In this document: piece by piece, positions 24,603 through 36,203 of the stretch | How positions within the stretch are numbered: the stretch's first letter is position 1 | Layout: the number at the start of each line of letters is the position of its first letter | Assembly: GCA_011051655.1 (NCBI GenBank) | Contig: DRKS01000045.1 | Location: forward strand, 1-64,000 | DNA from: Sedimenticola sp. | Lineage (GTDB): Bacteria; Pseudomonadota; Gammaproteobacteria; Chromatiales; Chromatiaceae | Length of the DNA: 64,000 nt | Reading direction: 5' to 3' | Program-made: the position numbers and the translations under genes | Notes under the pieces: generated by a model | The model's database searches: none | What the model was told of the DNA's origin: nothing | What the model saw: only the letters and a program-made list of their open reading frames with translations

Positions 24603-26825
24603 TCAGGCGACCCTGAACCCTCCATAGCCGGGCAGGCATTGGGACATGCCGTCTGCGGCGGGAAATTCTTTCATGATACCATCGGCAAACACCGGGGAAC
24701 CCAACAGGAACCCCTGCGCCTGGGGGCAGCCTATGGAACGCAGGTATTCCAGTTGAACCTCCGTCTCCACCCCCTCTGCAATGACGTTCAACCCCAGGCC
24801 CTTGCCCATGGCCACCACCGCGGTGATGATGGAATGCTGCTCATGGAGAGATTCGATGCGATTCACGAAGGCGCGGTCCAGCTTCAGGGTTGTCAGGGGA
24901 AGCGCCTGCAGATAGCCAAGGGATGAGTAGCCGGTTCCGAAATCGTCCACGGCTATCCTGACGCCGAAGTAGGTAAGCTGCCGCAGCTTCTGCACCACGT
25001 GCTCTATGTCCCGCATGAGGGCGTTTTCGGTAATCTCCAGCTCCAGCAATTCACCGGGCATCCGGTTCTCGTGCAAAATGCCCAATACGGTCTCGACGAA
25101 GTCCGCCCGGTACAACTGGGCGGCGCAGACGTTGACGGATATGCGCACGCCGTTGATTCCCGCCCGGCGCCAGCGGCGGTGGTCGGCGCAGGCGCTGCGC
25201 AACACCCATTCGCCGATATCGGTAATGAGGCCGGTCTCTTCCGCCAGGGGGATGAAATCCCCCGGCGGTATCAGTCCCTCCTGGGGATGCCGCCAGCGGA
25301 TCAGGGATTCAACCCCGGCAATTTCACCGCTGCCGATGTCAATCTGGGGCTGGTATTGGAGCACGAACTGGTTTTCCGACAGGGCCTTGCGCAAACCACT
25401 CTCCAGGGAAAAATGCCTCGATACCCGGCTCATCATGCTGCCGGAAAAGAATTCATAGCCATTCTTCCCCCGGCCCTTGATGTGGTACATGGCCATATCT
25501 GCATTTTTCACCAGTGTCTCCATGTTCTCGCCGTCGTCGGAGTAGAGCGCAATGCCGATACTGAGGCCGATAAAAATCTCATTGCCTTCGAGCAGGAAGG
25601 GGGCCTTCATGGTCTCTATCATCTTTGCCGCCGTCCTTGCTGCATCTTCCCGGCAACCGATCTCCGGCAACAGGAGATTGAACTCATCCCCGCCAACCCT
25701 TGCCAGGGTATCGCTCTGACGGAGACAGCGGCGAAGACGCTGCGCCACCGCCTGCAACAGCTTGTCTCCGGTAATATGGCCAAGGGAATCGTTGATAATC
25801 TTGAAGCCGTCCAGGTCGAGAACCATGACGGCAAGCAACTGGCCGCTGCGCTTCGCCCTGGACAGGGCGGTTTCCAGGCGATCCCAGAAAAGGGCCCGGT
25901 TTGGAAGGGACGTGAGTACATCGTGGTAAAGCTGATAGTTGATGGTCTCCTCCGCCCGCTTACGCTCGCTGATATCCCGGATGACACCGAAAGAGCCTGC
26001 AAAACCGCCGCCTGGATTCGGATGCATCTCTTCATGGATGCCCATCGAGTTCAACTCAACCGTAATGGGGCGGGAACCATAGGGTGAGGCCGGTGCGCCG
26101 TCGCTCTTGCGCACCACCCTGAGTTCAATCTGGTGAGTAAAGTCCTGCTCGGTCCTGTTTATATCGAATGCAAAGTCGGCCTTTTCAATATCTTCCTGGA
26201 AAATGATTTTGGAATAGTGCTCTCCGATCAACTCCTCTTTGGAATACCCCAGCAGCCCCACTATCCTGTCATTGACAAAACGGAAGCAGCCATTCTTGTC
26301 GAGCATGTAGATAATATCGGGGGAGCTATCTACAAAAAAACGGTAGCGCTGCTCGGAGCTGGCCAGGCGTTTTTGCATCAGAAGATTTTCCCTTTCCAAT
26401 TGCTGTTTCCGCATGGAATTTTCAATGGAATGCAGCAGCTCCGCCGTTGCATAGGGTTTTCGTAAAAGGTCGTGCGCCCCCTGTTGCAAAACCCGGATGG
26501 CATCATCCAGGGCGGCTGCGCCAGTCAAAACAATCACATTGGTATGCGGATGATGCTCCTTGATATATTGCAGCACCTGGTGGCCGTCGATTTGCGGCAT
26601 CTTGAGATCCAGCAGAACCAGGTCGAAGGGCCTTTGCTGCAGGCAGCGTATGGCCTTCCCGCCCCCCGAGGCCGTCACGCACTGGTAACCGTTGAGTTCC
26701 AGCAGCCCTTTCAGGCTGTCGCACATGCGAGGCTCGTCATCCACCACCAGAATAGTGGCGTTACAGTCCTCCTTCGGTGTGATGGTTTTATTCTGAAGAT
26801 CACCGTAAAGAACGTAATCAATCAC
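24603..26825 (-). CDS. Response regulator with PAS, GGDEF and EAL domains (c-di-GMP metabolism)
   Basis: About 740 residues. Order: receiver (about 25-140, phospho-Asp about D73 in LVLLDLKMPQIDG), PAS (about 155-290, ending GVIRDISERKRAEE), GGDEF (about 295-460), EAL (about 475-715). The cyclase motif is a true GGDEF (378-382) with an RQSD inhibitory site five residues before it. The EAL motif reads ESL, but the other catalytic blocks are intact: ELEITEN, DDFGTGYSSL, KLDRAF, EGVET. It may both make and break c-di-GMP. I chose GTG 26825, with GGGGGA upstream, since a TTG at 26921 would overlap the kinase gene by 70 nt. It follows the HDOD-GAF kinase, its likely partner. Confidence 0.88.
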   Translation of the reverse strand: MIDYVLYGDLQNKTITPKEDCNATILVVDDEPRMCDSLKGLLELNGYQCVTASGGGKAIRCLQQRPFDLVLLDLKMPQIDGHQVLQYIKEHHPHTNVIVLTGAAALDDAIRVLQQGAHDLLRKPYATAELLHSIENSMRKQQLERENLLMQKRLASSEQRYRFFVDSSPDIIYMLDKNGCFRFVNDRIVGLLGYSKEELIGEHYSKIIFQEDIEKADFAFDINRTEQDFTHQIELRVVRKSDGAPASPYGSRPITVELNSMGIHEEMHPNPGGGFAGSFGVIRDISERKRAEETINYQLYHDVLTSLPNRALFWDRLETALSRAKRSGQLLAVMVLDLDGFKIINDSLGHITGDKLLQAVAQRLRRCLRQSDTLARVGGDEFNLLLPEIGCREDAARTAAKMIETMKAPFLLEGNEIFIGLSIGIALYSDDGENMETLVKNADMAMYHIKGRGKNGYEFFSGSMMSRVSRHFSLESGLRKALSENQFVLQYQPQIDIGSGEIAGVESLIRWRHPQEGLIPPGDFIPLAEETGLITDIGEWVLRSACADHRRWRRAGINGVRISVNVCAAQLYRADFVETVLGILHENRMPGELLELEITENALMRDIEHVVQKLRQLTYFGVRIAVDDFGTGYSSLGYLQALPLTTLKLDRAFVNRIESLHEQHSIITAVVAMGKGLGLNVIAEGVETEVQLEYLRSIGCPQAQGFLLGSPVFADGIMKEFPAADGMSQCLPGYGGFRVA

Positions 26826-26851
26826 CGGCTGTCCCCCAAGTTTTTTTGCTG

Positions 26852-29005
26852 TTAACTTTTCTTCGCTGTCTGAGGAAGCAGGATCCGGAATTCGGTCCCT
26901 TTGTTCCGGCTGCTGCTGCAACTGATGGTCCCACCCAAATCCGTTACCAGTTGTTTGACGATAGTCAGCCCCAAGCCGGAGTGTCCCCGGCCCTTGGTGC
27001 TGGCGACCGGCTTGAACAGATCCTTTATGACATGGTCCGGCATCCCCGGGCCGTTGTCCGCCACGGTCAGCTCGACGAACAGTTCGCCATTGACATTCAC
27101 CTGGCCCCTGGTCCCGATAAAAACGGATCCGCCCTCCGGCATGGCCTCTGCGGCATTCTTGATCAGATTGGTGAGGATCTGCTTCAGGCTGTTTCGGTTA
27201 GTTGAAAGTAGCGGCATCGATTCATCCAGGTTTAGTTCATCCTGGATTGCGCATGCCGAAAAAAGGGATACCCTGAAGATGGAGAGCAAATCCCGTATCA
27301 ATCCGTTCAGGTCCAGTTCCCCTGCCGGCTCCTCTTCAGCCGTGGGCAGATCCCTTAAACGAAGCAGGATGCCCGCCACCCGCTCGATCTCCTCTTTCAG
27401 GATGCTGAATCGAAGCTGGGTCACCCGGTCACCCTTTAACTCGGCGGCAAGGATCTCGAGATAGTTTTTTATAATGCCCAAGGGATTGTTGGCTTCGTGC
27501 ACCAGTTTTCCGATCCGCTCCTGTTGCCGCTCTTGTGCCGATTCCAGGAATTGCTGTTGGACCGCGGCCAAGCGATGGCATCGCGAGATCGCCTGTGCCG
27601 CTTCGGTTGCAAAGCAGGTCACCAGGCCGCCTTGCTGGAGCAGTTCCGGGGGTTGTCCGCAGTCCAGGCCTGCAACCAGCACCCCGATATCCTGCCGCCC
27701 GGCAATGAGCGGGATGCAGAGCAGCCCCTCCGCCCCAAGCAGCCTGATTATCTGCTGGTCGATCACCGAGAGGCTTGCCGTATTTGAAATATCGAACGAG
27801 GAGAACGGGGAGCGCTGGAGAATGGCCTCGGCAACCAGGCTGCGGCCGGCCTTCACAGGGATGGAGATTTGTTCCTGCTTTTCATCACCCGGCAGGCTGG
27901 CGGCGGCAACCGACAACCGCCCGGCTTCAGTGTCGTATAAAAAGCAGAGACTGCGGGAAAGCCCGAAAAGGATATTCAGATCCACCAGGATGGCCCGCAG
28001 GACAGCATCCAGATCGCCATCGTCCTCCATGTTTTGGCGCGCGCCATCGAGCAATGCGATAGTGCGGACCTGTCTGGCCAATTCCAGTTTGGCCCGTTCA
28101 CTCTCTGCCTGAAAAACCGTTTCAACGCTGGAGTCCCTTCCGGCATCCGCCCCGGGATCGAATTTTATTCCCATCGCCTCGGCGGCTTCACAGACTTGCC
28201 GGTCAGCATCCTCGAGCAAATCTTCCAACAAGGGCTGTGTCAGACCAAACAGGAGATCGGCCTGTTGGGATAATTGAATCGGGTCCCCGCTTCCCTGGCT
28301 CAGCTTATGGCCAAGATTGATCAGCCTGGTAAGGCGTGGCGTATCCAGAATCGATTCGGCGACTTCCCGCTGATACAAAATGGCATCACTCAAAAATGAC
28401 CCAAGTCCCCAATCATCGATCAGCATGGCCCCCACTTCGGGGGCGGTTGCACCGAACAGCTCCCGCTCCCCCGCATTCAGTTCCTCTGTGGTTTTCGCGC
28501 TCAGCAGCAACTGTGAATAGCCGTCGGGAGATTCTCTCAGCAGCACCAGTTGGCCAATGTTATGAAGCAGGCCCGTCAGGTAGGCCTCATCCTCCGGCTC
28601 GTAACCCGTGAGCCGCGCCAGGGATTTTGCGCTATAGGCGCAGGTCAGTGAGGTTTGCCAGAATCTCGCCACAAGGCGATCCCCCTCGCCGTCAAACCCC
28701 GAAAAGAATTGATGAACCGCAGAAGTGACAGCGATGGTCCTGATGGTCTTGAGGCCGAGGACGACCAGCAACCGGTTGAAATCCGTTGTATCCCGCCACT
28801 GGGCGTAAACCGGGGAATTGGCCACCGCAACGACCTTCGAGCAAAGGGCCACATCCTTTTTGATAATGCCGGCGAGTTCCTCGAAACCGACATCGGGTCT
28901 ATGGCACGCCTCGATCAGTTTGAGCAAGGCCTGGGGGGCGGAAGGAAGCTTCCCCACATTTATACAGGCGGCATTTTTCTTGGATGGGGTGTTCATAGCT
29001 AACAT
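26852..29005 (-). CDS. HDOD-GAF hybrid sensor histidine kinase
   Basis: A 717-residue soluble protein. HDOD domain about 15-215 (GLLHNIGQLVLL, 145-156, keeps only part of the HD signature, as usual in HDOD), GAF about 320-475, then a histidine kinase: phospho-acceptor H503 in KLVHEANNPLG, N box LTNLIKNAAEA (611-621), G1 DNGPGMP, G2 GHSGLGLTIV. No transmembrane segment is seen, so it senses a cytoplasmic signal, perhaps a small ligand at GAF. It lies 26 nt upstream of the REC-PAS-GGDEF-EAL gene on the same strand, so phosphotransfer to that receiver is the natural inference. Divergent from the FlhG-like ATPase by 32 nt. Confidence 0.87.
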   Translation of the reverse strand: MLAMNTPSKKNAACINVGKLPSAPQALLKLIEACHRPDVGFEELAGIIKKDVALCSKVVAVANSPVYAQWRDTTDFNRLLVVLGLKTIRTIAVTSAVHQFFSGFDGEGDRLVARFWQTSLTCAYSAKSLARLTGYEPEDEAYLTGLLHNIGQLVLLRESPDGYSQLLLSAKTTEELNAGERELFGATAPEVGAMLIDDWGLGSFLSDAILYQREVAESILDTPRLTRLINLGHKLSQGSGDPIQLSQQADLLFGLTQPLLEDLLEDADRQVCEAAEAMGIKFDPGADAGRDSSVETVFQAESERAKLELARQVRTIALLDGARQNMEDDGDLDAVLRAILVDLNILFGLSRSLCFLYDTEAGRLSVAAASLPGDEKQEQISIPVKAGRSLVAEAILQRSPFSSFDISNTASLSVIDQQIIRLLGAEGLLCIPLIAGRQDIGVLVAGLDCGQPPELLQQGGLVTCFATEAAQAISRCHRLAAVQQQFLESAQERQQERIGKLVHEANNPLGIIKNYLEILAAELKGDRVTQLRFSILKEEIERVAGILLRLRDLPTAEEEPAGELDLNGLIRDLLSIFRVSLFSACAIQDELNLDESMPLLSTNRNSLKQILTNLIKNAAEAMPEGGSVFIGTRGQVNVNGELFVELTVADNGPGMPDHVIKDLFKPVASTKGRGHSGLGLTIVKQLVTDLGGTISCSSSRNKGTEFRILLPQTAKKS

Positions 29006-29037
29006 GCTATTTTAAAAGTAGAGCATAACTCTATGAT

Positions 29038-30348
29038 ATGCCATACTTATCTTGTAATTTTTTGGAAGCATCCCTGGATGATCACCAGACAAACCTTCAT
29101 ATGAGCGCGGGAACCACCAACGGGGAGCCGGCTTCCCGGGTTGCACTTCGGGATAAAACGCAAAACACCAGGGCCAGGGTCATCGCCATCACCAGCGGCA
29201 AGGGGGGCGTGGGCAAGACCAACATCGCCGCCAATCTTGGAATTGCGCTGACCTCCCGCGGCAGGCGCGTGTGCGTGTTCGACGCCGATACCAATCTGGC
29301 GAATATCGATATCCTCCTGGGCCTGACCCCTGCCTTCACCCTGGAACACCTGCTCGACGGCGCAAAGGCGATAGAGGATATTCTTTTGGATGGTCCCGCC
29401 GGACTGCATATCGTTCCGGCCGCCTCGGGCATTGCGGAGTTCATCGACCTGGGCAGGGATCAACAGGAGCGGCTGCTGGCGGCGCTGAAAAAGCTGGAGT
29501 CCGATTTCGATTATCTGCTGATCGATACCGCGGCGGGCATCAGCGAGTCCGTGCTTGGCTTCCTCCAGGCCGCACCCTACACCATTTTGGCCATCACCCC
29601 GGAGCCAACCTCTCTCACCGACTCTTTTTCCCTGATCAAGGTGCTGAAGAGGCTCAGGTTTGATCACCCCATCTTTGTAATCGTCAACATGGCCTCCAGC
29701 CAGGACTCCGCCAGCGGCACCTTCAAGCGCTTCAGGGACGCCGTTGCAAAATACCTGCAAATCAAGGTGCATTATCTTGGCTGCATCCTCTCCGACGCGG
29801 ACCTGGGCAACGCGGTGCTCCGGCAGAAAGCCGTCCTGCTGGAATCCCCCGCCGGGCAGGCCAGCCGTTGCATTCAGACGATTTCAGAGCGGCTGGAGCG
29901 GGCCCTTGAATCTGCAAAGAGCAAAGACGGCTTCAGCGATTTCTGGGCCACACTTCTGCAACCCTTCGGCGACGCCTTAACAGAGGCCCCATTGGCGGCC
30001 ACCCCCCTGGAGGAAGGAGGCAATCCCGAAAACATCAAGCAATACCTGCAAGCGAAGGACATCACGGAGGAACAGGCGGAGGCATTGCTCCTGGAGCTGA
30101 TACAGATTTGGATGGAACGTTTCGGACATCCTCCACCCTCCCTTCTCGATATCATTGAACAACCGGCCATCCCGAACGGCGTTGCCAAATCTGGCCACTG
30201 TGCAACAGAGTTGGAAGATGCCGAAAACCGGGCGGCCGTAAAACCGCCAGAGAGGGAGTCGCTTGAGATCCAGGAGGCAGAGGTTGCCGGCCTCCGGCGT
30301 GCTATCCATTATGCCAGATTACTGGCCAGCTCTGAGCATGGACGATAA
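29038..30348 (+). CDS. MinD/ParA-type ATPase, FlhG(FleN)-like, with C-terminal extension
   Basis: A 436-residue deviant-Walker ATPase: SGKGGVGKTNIAANLG (P-loop with the signature Lys), VCVFDADTNLANIDILLG (switch I region) and YLLIDTAAGISESV (Walker B area). TPEPTSLTDSFSLIKVL resembles FlhG/FleN and related MinD-like proteins. FlhG is usually 270-300 residues; here about 140 extra residues follow, rich in Glu and Ala and without a recognised domain. An internal ATG at 29101 (MSAGTTNGEP) is an alternative start, and neither start has a good ribosome site. No flhF is adjacent, and the flagellar block is 17 kb away. It may control flagellum number or position some other polar machinery. Confidence 0.78.
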   Translation: MPYLSCNFLEASLDDHQTNLHMSAGTTNGEPASRVALRDKTQNTRARVIAITSGKGGVGKTNIAANLGIALTSRGRRVCVFDADTNLANIDILLGLTPAFTLEHLLDGAKAIEDILLDGPAGLHIVPAASGIAEFIDLGRDQQERLLAALKKLESDFDYLLIDTAAGISESVLGFLQAAPYTILAITPEPTSLTDSFSLIKVLKRLRFDHPIFVIVNMASSQDSASGTFKRFRDAVAKYLQIKVHYLGCILSDADLGNAVLRQKAVLLESPAGQASRCIQTISERLERALESAKSKDGFSDFWATLLQPFGDALTEAPLAATPLEEGGNPENIKQYLQAKDITEEQAEALLLELIQIWMERFGHPPPSLLDIIEQPAIPNGVAKSGHCATELEDAENRAAVKPPERESLEIQEAEVAGLRRAIHYARLLASSEHGR

Positions 30349-33448: not shown

Positions 33449-35035
33449 TCAACCACACACCCTGTTCTTGCCCTCCCTCTTCGCTTGATACAGTTTGTCG
33501 TCCGCCCTTTTTATCAGCTCCGTCACGCTGTAGCCGTTTTCCGGAAAACTGGCGACCCCGGCGCTGATTGTGACCTCCCGGTTGGGAAACTCGTATTCCG
33601 CCACGGTCTTGACGAGTCTCTCCGCAAAAGGCAGCACTTGGTCTTTATCGAGCTCCGGCACCAAGATACAAAATTCTTCCCCGCCAAAGCGGCCAACGGT
33701 ATCAGACACCCTGGCCGTCTTTATCAGAAGCCGCGATACGGCCTTCAGGACCTTGTTCCCCTCAAGGTGTCCAAAGCTGTCGTTATAGGATTTGAAGTTG
33801 TCGATATCGATCATCAGGATAGAGAACCGGCCGTTGTGGCGCTTCGCCCTGTCCCCCTCCTTTTCGATCTGCTCCATGAGGCTGTGATGATTCAAAAGAC
33901 CGGTCAGGCCGTCATGCTGGCTTTGGTGCCACAGTTTCTCGATGGACTTGACCCGCTCCACCGTCAGCGCCGCATAGATGGTAAGCAGCGAAAAAAGCGA
34001 TATATCCTCCGTTCTTATCTCTTTTTTCTTGAAATCATTCAAATACAGTATGCCCACCACCGTTCTCTGAATAATGAGCGGCGCCGCGAGCACTGATCGC
34101 ACGCCTTCTGAAACGAGTATGGGATTCGGGTCCGGCAAATCCTCGATATCGGCAAAAAACAGCGGGGTTGTCTGATTCAGCAGAATATCGGTCAGCCCCC
34201 CTTTTCTTATTTTCCATCTATTCGCATCGTTGAAATTCTTGCTGAATCCCTTGGCGGCGGCCAGGATCATTCCCTCGCCCGTGTCGTCACATATGGCCAG
34301 GGAACCGGCCGGCATATTCAGAAGCTTCGAGGCATAGTCGACGATGGCATAGGTCGCGTCCGCCATGCTGTCGATGTTCTCGATGATTTCCCCCAGGTGA
34401 CACAGGCTTTCGTGCTCCCTCAGGGTTCTGTTCCTTTCCGCCAGCCGTTTTCTCCGTTCTTCCGTTATCTGCCACATCAGCATTGCGGACAACCCGCCCA
34501 TAAGCTCCGTCTCGGGGGAGAGCATCTTTCTCAACTCGGCCGTCACCTTCTCCGAGCCGGTTACGTTAACCAGCACATCGACATTTTCCGTCTCGATAAA
34601 AGAGTAATCGGTGAAGAAAGGGATGTTCAGCCGGTTCACCAGCTTCACGCCAACCGCGTCTGGATTGGCGTCCGAGGCAAAAACGATATCGATACAGGGA
34701 TTTTCCTTCAGGATATGAAGCACGGCCACACCACCTCTTCCGCACCCCACGACGCCAACCCTGAGATTTGGCTGTGACGCATCACATTCGCTCGGGACAA
34801 AACTGTTCATAAAGCCCAAGGCCACCGCCCGGTCAACCGCGTGGCCCCGGGTGCGAACATTCAGCTTCTGACGAATGTCTTTGAGGTGTCTCCTTACAGC
34901 CTGCTGTGTCAAATCAAGAGAGGAGGATATTTCGGCGTCCGTTTTGCCTTTTTGAATAGCCTTCAATATAGCAAGCTCAAGGGGGGAAAGCAGTACGCTG
35001 TCAATCGGCAGCATTGCCAAACTGTCATCACTCAT
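33449..35035 (-). CDS. Diguanylate cyclase with LuxR-type HTH, Rossmann and GAF domains
   Basis: A 528-residue protein of unusual build. Residues 15-78 are a LuxR-type helix-turn-helix (LSPLELAILKAI, then KTDAEISSSLDLTQQAVRRH). Residues 91-190 form a Rossmann-like domain, GVVGCGRGGVAVL with a GxGxxG turn at 97-102, then DANPDAVGVKL and NVDVLVNVTG, as in NAD-binding domains that I recall fused to histidine kinases. GAF spans about 215-365. GGDEF is about 370-525: GGEEF at 451-455 with an RVSD inhibitory site five residues before, so cyclase activity with product inhibition is likely. No membrane segment. It is monocistronic by context, with no clear ribosome site at the ATG. Confidence 0.85.
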   Translation of the reverse strand: MSDDSLAMLPIDSVLLSPLELAILKAIQKGKTDAEISSSLDLTQQAVRRHLKDIRQKLNVRTRGHAVDRAVALGFMNSFVPSECDASQPNLRVGVVGCGRGGVAVLHILKENPCIDIVFASDANPDAVGVKLVNRLNIPFFTDYSFIETENVDVLVNVTGSEKVTAELRKMLSPETELMGGLSAMLMWQITEERRKRLAERNRTLREHESLCHLGEIIENIDSMADATYAIVDYASKLLNMPAGSLAICDDTGEGMILAAAKGFSKNFNDANRWKIRKGGLTDILLNQTTPLFFADIEDLPDPNPILVSEGVRSVLAAPLIIQRTVVGILYLNDFKKKEIRTEDISLFSLLTIYAALTVERVKSIEKLWHQSQHDGLTGLLNHHSLMEQIEKEGDRAKRHNGRFSILMIDIDNFKSYNDSFGHLEGNKVLKAVSRLLIKTARVSDTVGRFGGEEFCILVPELDKDQVLPFAERLVKTVAEYEFPNREVTISAGVASFPENGYSVTELIKRADDKLYQAKREGKNRVCG

Positions 35036-35171: not shown

Positions 35172-36203
35172 ATGGAACCACCCCCGCCCCAAGCGCCGCC
35201 AATCAGTATTTTATTGCCCTTCCACAACGAAGCGGCAATGCTGGAGGCGTGCCTGGATTCTATCCGGGCGCAAAGCTTCTCCGATTATGAACTGCTGGCC
35301 GTGAATGACGCCTCCAGCGACCGGTCCGTGGCAATCCTGGAGCGGCGGGCCCGGGAAGACGACCGCATCCGGCTTCTTCATAATCCCGGCAGGGGGCTGG
35401 TGTCTGCGCTGAATCATGGCCTGAGCCGGGCCCGAGGCAATCTGGTTGCGCGCATGGATGCCGATGACATCATGCATCCTCACCGGCTTCAGCGACAGCA
35501 GGATTTTCTCCGAAGGCGCCCGGAGATCTCCCTGCTGGGGACCTGTGTGCGCCTGTTCCCACAGAGCCGGATACAAAAGGGTTACCGTGAATACATACGC
35601 TGGCAAAACCGCTGTCTTGAACCCCGGGACATCGCCGGCGACATCTATATAGAATCACCCTTCGCCCACCCCTCCGTCATGTTCAGAAAAAAGGCGGTGC
35701 AGGATCTCGGCGGCTACCGGGACGGCCCCTTCCCCGAGGACTATGATCTCTGGCTGCGGCTGCATCATGCCGGCCACCAAATGGCCAAGCTTCCGGACAT
35801 CCTGCTCAACTGGCGGGAGCGCCCCGATCGGGTCTCCCGCGTGGATCAACGCTGCAGCCGCGAGGCCTTTGACCGGCTCCGGGCCCACCACTTGGCGTCA
35901 GACCCCCGCCTGAAGGCGCGCCGGGATGAGCTGGTCATCTGGGGCGCCGGACGGAAAACCCGTAAGCGCTGCCGCCATCTGCTGGGCCATGGCTACCGCC
36001 CTCAGGCCTGGATCGACATAGATCCCCGCAAGATCGGCAACCGCCTGGATGGCGTGCCGGTGGTGTCCCCCGGCTGGCTGGAGCTTGACCGCCGGCCATT
36101 CGTGCTCTGCTACGTGGCCAACCACGGCGCCCGGGATCTGATTGCCGGGCAGTTGCATGCCATGGGATACCGGCGGGGGGAGGATTATCTGATGGTCGGC
36201 TGA
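35172..36203 (+). CDS. Family 2 glycosyltransferase with extra C-terminal domain
   Basis: A 343-residue GT-A fold enzyme. ISILLPFHNEAAMLEACLDS opens the nucleotide-sugar domain, LLAVNDASSDRS follows, and RMDADDIMHP (about 96-105) is the DXD metal site. SPFAHPSVMFRKKAV and FPEDYDLWLRL are typical acceptor-side blocks of GT2. About 85 C-terminal residues (LVIWGAGRKTRKRCRHLL, IDIDPRKIGNRL) look like a small nucleotide-binding Rossmann-type add-on. No other polysaccharide genes are adjacent, so the sugar and the product are unknown. Confidence 0.85.
   Translation: MEPPPPQAPPISILLPFHNEAAMLEACLDSIRAQSFSDYELLAVNDASSDRSVAILERRAREDDRIRLLHNPGRGLVSALNHGLSRARGNLVARMDADDIMHPHRLQRQQDFLRRRPEISLLGTCVRLFPQSRIQKGYREYIRWQNRCLEPRDIAGDIYIESPFAHPSVMFRKKAVQDLGGYRDGPFPEDYDLWLRLHHAGHQMAKLPDILLNWRERPDRVSRVDQRCSREAFDRLRAHHLASDPRLKARRDELVIWGAGRKTRKRCRHLLGHGYRPQAWIDIDPRKIGNRLDGVPVVSPGWLELDRRPFVLCYVANHGARDLIAGQLHAMGYRRGEDYLMVG

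Follow-up and report, generated by a model that had tools for sequence, protein, structure and literature searches.

A LuxR-type HTH and a Rossmann module joined to a predicted diguanylate cyclase in Sedimenticola sp.

Introduction

Which signal would a protein perceive, and which outputs would it control, if one chain of 528 residues held a helix-turn-helix (HTH), a Rossmann domain, a GAF domain and a GGDEF cyclase for the biofilm signal c-di-GMP? This question was raised by one locus in the window, by which we mean the whole stretch of 64,000 nucleotides of Sedimenticola sp. DNA that was analysed. An initial annotation of the letters had read these four domains at 33449-35035 and suggested that a possible NAD(H)-type ligand would link the redox state to lifestyle.

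Such a protein resembles two known systems in part. PdeL (YahA) of E. coli consists of a LuxR-type HTH and an EAL domain; it both binds and activates the region of its own promoter, and this activation is inhibited by c-di-GMP (PMC5052742). Rex has an N-terminal winged HTH followed by an NAD-type Rossmann domain (PMC8836258). A review on trigger enzymes raised the possibility that the direct contact of a cyclase with a target protein could be tuned by control through the input domain or the I-site (PMC5052742).

Results

A maintained gene for four domains

The gene at 33449-35035 is an open reading frame of the minus strand that starts with ATG at 35035 and encodes 528 amino acids, and the plus-strand frame over the same interval is broken by stops. 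The initial annotation had the coordinates right and gave no strand. Orthologues in the same family align over the full length with 75-77% identity. In close orthologue pairs, dN/dS was 0.07-0.16 for the HTH, 0.08-0.16 for the Rossmann domain, 0.03-0.05 for GAF and 0.02-0.05 for GGDEF, and thus purifying selection acts on all four domains. The full-length orthologues and these low ratios (0.02-0.16 in every domain) indicate a maintained gene and rule out a chance reading or an artefact. The features are as follows (all on the minus strand).

33449..35035, minus: coding sequence of the HTH-Rossmann-GAF-GGDEF protein, 528 aa (open reading frame, full-length orthologues)
34802..34996, minus: LuxR/GerE-type HTH, residues 14-78 (Pfam, four-helix model, dN/dS)
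34466..34765, minus: Rossmann (NAD-type) domain, residues 91-190 (profile against PDB and Pfam; predicted fold, Foldseek)
34730..34747, minus: glycine-rich nucleotide loop GCGRGG, residues 97-102 (sequence, module alignment)
34670..34672, minus: acidic residue D122 at the end of the second strand (Asp or Glu in 132 of 132 module copies)
34379..34492, minus: long helix between the Rossmann domain and GAF (coupling helix), residues 182-219 (full-length model)
33950..34369, minus: GAF domain, residues 223-362 (Pfam GAF_2)
33455..33925, minus: GGDEF diguanylate cyclase domain, residues 371-527 (Pfam GGDEF)
33701..33712, minus: I-site RVSD, residues 442-445 (invariant R and D)
33671..33685, minus: A-site GGEEF, residues 451-455 (intact, invariant)

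The four-domain reading was borne out by Pfam, by profiles and by structure prediction. The full-length model (pLDDT 84.6) consists of the four HTH helices, the Rossmann domain, helix 182-219, GAF, helix 342-373 and GGDEF; its pTM was only 0.48, so it does not fix the relative placement of the domains.

The N-terminal HTH

Pfam GerE matches residues 16-69 (E 4e-10, 39.6 bits against a cutoff of 23.5), and residues 18-73 form the four helices typical of GerE in the full-length model. The HTH that had been proposed for residues 1-80 is therefore present. Its dN/dS in close orthologues is similar to that of the Rossmann domain, and its recognition region is unlike between the gammaproteobacterial and the deltaproteobacterial groups. 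The regions upstream of the window gene and of six orthologues were aligned and scanned for imperfect palindromes, with shuffled controls. No palindrome was common to these seven regions, and the counts were about at the shuffled level except in the orthologue L099 (5 against 1.6); autoregulation was rejected as a candidate on these grounds.

Alternatively, the protein might be an ordinary diguanylate cyclase with several sensors, whose HTH-like part has lost specific DNA binding and is now a module for dimerisation or protein contact; c-di-GMP would then be the sole output. The lack of an operator in the upstream palindrome scan would fit this explanation, and so would the degenerate HTH in one tandem copy and the nearest relatives outside the HTH forms, which have Rossmann-GAF-GGDEF and do without an HTH (one of them in the window's genome). 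However, the GerE score is well over its cutoff here and reaches 61.8 bits in the L010 protein, the four-helix fold is predicted, and the HTH has long been kept under purifying selection, and we therefore regard a cyclase with c-di-GMP as its only output as somewhat unlikely.

The Rossmann domain and its candidate ligand

The Rossmann region had no match in the full-length Pfam scan; when scanned alone, it reached DapB_N just at the cutoff (25.7 against 25.6 bits). In the PDB, a profile of 17 relatives retrieved acetaldehyde dehydrogenases at 9e-6 and Rex at 3.7e-4, and the NCBIfam Rex model was matched by 16 of 17 members, weakly and far under its cutoff. AlphaFold2 folded the isolated domain as a Rossmann fold (pLDDT 84.9). 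In a Foldseek search, this model matched NAD(P)-binding domains from acetaldehyde dehydrogenases and from dehydrogenases of the Gfo/Idh/MocA type (best 8.4e-5, with a TM-score of 0.66 by query length). The fold on which the initial annotation had staked its view of residues 91-190 is thus the one predicted.

Across 132 module copies, the glycines of GxGxxG were kept in 99%, 95% and 86%, and position 122 was Asp in 120 and Glu in 12. Among 13 proteins of the same architecture, this position was Asp in 12 and Glu in one, and G97, G99, G101, G102, T159 and S183 were invariant. It is established for Rossmann folds that an acidic residue here, where the second strand ends, forms a hydrogen bond with the adenine ribose and makes NADP(H) a less favoured ligand. 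Because of the fold, the GxGxxG loop and this acidic residue, an NAD(H)-type ligand is plausible, as far as the sequence and the models go. The module has about 120 residues and is without the catalytic half of a dehydrogenase; its small size and its attachment to signalling outputs suggest a sensor rather than an enzyme.

Rossmann domains in general bind many ligands, and weak profile matches to the CoA_binding, PglD_N and NeuD models were also found. The ligand might then be CoA, a nucleotide-sugar or another nucleotide, and the input would be metabolic but not redox. We consider this improbable, since NAD(P)-dependent dehydrogenases and Rex gave the best matches in structure and sequence, and the invariant acidic residue favours an unphosphorylated adenine ribose. 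It could also be argued that GAF is the sole sensor and that the Rossmann domain binds no ligand and serves as a structural adaptor, as dN/dS in close orthologues is lower in GAF than in the Rossmann domain and a few module copies are without some of the loop glycines. This is very unlikely, because few positions are as conserved as the loop glycines and the acidic residue across the 132 copies with their unrelated outputs, and the module is the only recognisable input in some proteins, such as Rossmann-GGDEF and Rossmann-HisKA_3.

Coupling helix, GAF and cyclase

Residues 191-222, in the region of the coupling helix, are 91% identical among close orthologues and 59-62% identical to the deltaproteobacterial ones. 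Pfam GAF_2 matches residues 228-359 (E 4.5e-10) and Pfam GGDEF residues 373-525 (E 6.6e-45); no EAL match was found in the protein by Pfam. The residues predicted for an active cyclase are all there, namely GGEEF 451-455 and the metal and substrate residues D410, K415 and N418. The I-site R442-V-S-D445 is intact and sits five residues ahead of the A-site. D410, K415, N418, R442, D445 and GGEEF 451-455 are also invariant in the 13 proteins of the same architecture.

The Rossmann module with other outputs

Two more proteins with the module are encoded in the window's genome, one of 459 residues (Rossmann-GAF-GGDEF) and one of 914 residues, which has Rossmann, GAF, GGDEF and EAL domains. In genome samples that were not random over all bacteria, the module was found in 99 of 299 genomes of the window's phylum and in 70 of 247 of the phylum of genome G447, and 88 of 198 genomes from the phylum of a Nitrospirae MAG matched the HTH+Rossmann profile, nearly all across the Rossmann part. 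We surveyed its outputs by reading 135 open frames. Some copies were short and stood alone, and the rest were joined to signalling outputs: cyclases (GGDEF; GAF-GGDEF; GGDEF-EAL), kinases (GAF-HisKA-HATPase; HisKA_3-HATPase; PAS-HisKA with two tandem Rossmann domains), an MCP signalling domain, Sigma54_activat with HTH_8 and, apparently, the inside of a receiver domain. The statement in the initial annotation that similar Rossmann domains occur on histidine kinases was correct, with HisKA and HisKA_3 outputs among these frames. Judged by these domain matches, the Rossmann module is a mobile input module that recurs with many signalling outputs. Some copies score above the Pfam cutoff for the generic models GFO_IDH_MocA, NAD_binding_3 or DapB_N, so the module is not invisible; a dedicated Pfam model for it was not found.

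Several arrangements were observed beside the cyclases. In three genomes of the Nitrospirae-type sample, proteins of 275-301 residues combine a receiver with the Rossmann domain (L233:848-1672, L234:648-1550 and L235:727-1629, minus strands). In L233, the Response_reg match reaches as far as profile position 93 of 111 and breaks off at about the start of the Rossmann domain, which is followed by DGVKDFLMKPIGKDRLV. The segment after the Rossmann domain in L233-L235 appears to be the last strand of the receiver, and the Rossmann domain would then be inserted within it. Open frames of 215-279 residues in L180, L181, L183, L184 and L185 have the Rossmann domain and an MCP-type segment (MCPsignal 6.4e-19 in L184), and these short proteins are possibly soluble chemoreceptor-like sensors. 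The Rossmann domain lies ahead of a sigma54 activator (Sigma54_activat, HTH_8) in L218:1498-2799, and two tandem Rossmann domains precede histidine kinase domains in L178, L179, L171 and L167 (PAS and HisKA by Pfam in L178).

Distribution and origin of the architecture

In the order sample of 147 genomes, the full architecture occurs in the window's genome and in five genomes of one other genus of the same family, and it is absent from the 228 other genomes of the gammaproteobacterial class sample. In the class around G447, made up of uncultured 'Deltaproteobacteria' MAGs such as L006, L007 and L010, 16 of the 63 sampled genomes have it, and genome G499 is one more carrier in G447's phylum. 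Among the matches listed for the 198 genomes of the Nitrospirae MAG's phylum, none spans HTH and Rossmann in full. The four-domain architecture is thus neither unique nor common. The initial annotation knew of no such combination and had allowed that it might already be described in many species; about two dozen sampled species have it, and no description of the architecture or of the Rossmann module was found in the open-licence literature searched.

A maximum likelihood tree was built on the Rossmann-GAF part only. All HTH forms fell into one group (100/100), together with one copy without a recognised HTH, a tandem copy in the L010 genome, and the HTH was retained in nearly all descendants of this one origin. 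The simplest reading is that the architecture had a single origin in one fusion event. The window's group of seven copies came out as a clade (100/100), which has G499 as its nearest neighbour (97/95) and is nested among deltaproteobacterial copies. This nesting suggests a later horizontal transfer into the window's family. The G+C content of the gene is 53%, compared to 62% for the window and 43-50% for the other measured orthologues, which is in keeping with a transfer but is no proof of it. Inheritance throughout the gammaproteobacteria was not supported, as none of the 228 other class genomes carried the HTH form and only two genera did so among the 147 order genomes.

Second tandem copies adjoin the gene in two places, L010:7690-9228 and L236:484-2109; their A-sites are altered (GDNRF and HDGEF), and the HTH of the copy in L010 is degenerate. 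They are possibly inactive partners of the first copy.

Genomic neighbourhood

The gene faces rsgA in convergent orientation and has a lytic transglycosylase gene on its opposite side, both in the window and in two relatives. A glycosyltransferase family 2 gene (35172-36203) lies between it and the lytic transglycosylase in the window, and no open reading frame of at least 200 aa lies there in L099 and L101. Genes for a receiver-PAS-GGDEF-EAL protein, an HDOD-GAF-HATPase protein and a MinD/ParA-type ATPase are found at 24603-30348 of the window. The neighbourhood in the window and the two relatives suggests no partner gene; the gene stands alone there, and its neighbours thus point to no target.

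Discussion

A close likeness is to PdeL, which also has an N-terminal LuxR-like HTH and a c-di-GMP enzyme in one chain (PMC5052742). However, PdeL degrades c-di-GMP by its EAL domain and has neither Rossmann nor GAF, whereas the enzyme of the window protein is a predicted cyclase. Like Rex (PMC8836258), the window protein has a DNA-binding-type N-terminus followed by an NAD-type Rossmann domain with GxGxxG, but the profile matches are weak, Rex has no GAF or cyclase, and its winged helix differs from the GerE four-helix HTH found here. The window protein therefore belongs neither to the PdeL type nor to the Rex family, as the former would need an EAL enzyme instead of a cyclase and the latter a winged HTH. 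By analogy, it is best read as a counterpart of PdeL with a Rex-like head.

Other known proteins share smaller parts. Diguanylate cyclases such as 3i5a (WspR-type) and 1w25 (PleD) have a GGDEF domain with A-site and I-site but no HTH or Rossmann module. Regulators of the PucR/MabR type join a GGDEF fold and an HTH in one chain, but their GGDEF-like domain is without A-site and I-site, the HTH is C-terminal and PucR-type, and there is no Rossmann domain (PMC11617747). Fusions of GGDEF with several types of HTH are on record for cyanobacteria, by sequence only, and no Rossmann domain was seen in the part of that paper considered here (PMC1858693). The NAD-binding domains of DapB_N, GFO_IDH_MocA and acetaldehyde dehydrogenases share the fold and the glycine loop, but the module lacks their C-terminal catalytic or substrate domain, and its Rossmann part runs into the long helix and GAF.

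We tentatively suggest, at slightly less than an even chance, that the protein is a 'trigger diguanylate cyclase', by which we mean a one-component regulator that acts in the cytoplasm, is probably a dimer and has two outputs. The Rossmann domain would bind a dinucleotide, most likely NAD+ or NADH, and the signal would pass through helix 182-219 into GAF, which may bind a second ligand, and then through helix 342-373 into the GGDEF dimer. Given its intact motifs, the dimer would synthesise c-di-GMP and be curbed at the I-site. The conformational change, together with c-di-GMP at the I-site, would rearrange the two N-terminal HTHs and alter DNA binding, in analogy to Rex and PdeL. DNA binding, the dual output and the link from redox to lifestyle are what we infer for this regulator. 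In both known examples of trigger enzymes the enzyme is an EAL phosphodiesterase, whereas the window protein has no EAL. The HTH-cyclase fusion would be a cyclase counterpart to PdeL, and a cyclase version of a trigger enzyme would be a new type.

The sensory domains of c-di-GMP signalling were surveyed in a census of 2022, whose main text names heme, hemerythrin, flavin-PAS and disulfides as means of sensing oxygen and redox state (PMC8846402). The words Rossmann and dehydrogenase are absent from this main text, and its passages on NAD concern phenazines and the NADH/NAD+ ratio, with no NAD-binding domain. A wider reading is that the module is a general cytoplasmic NAD(H)-sensing input which various bacterial lineages have joined to signalling outputs of nearly every kind, and that the window protein, as a trigger diguanylate cyclase, couples NAD redox to both c-di-GMP synthesis and transcription; as a whole this is doubtful. 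The widely shared Rossmann module is a more valuable lead than the window protein itself. Should the module bind NAD(H), the NAD pool would become a candidate direct input for many c-di-GMP enzymes, kinases and chemoreceptor-like proteins.
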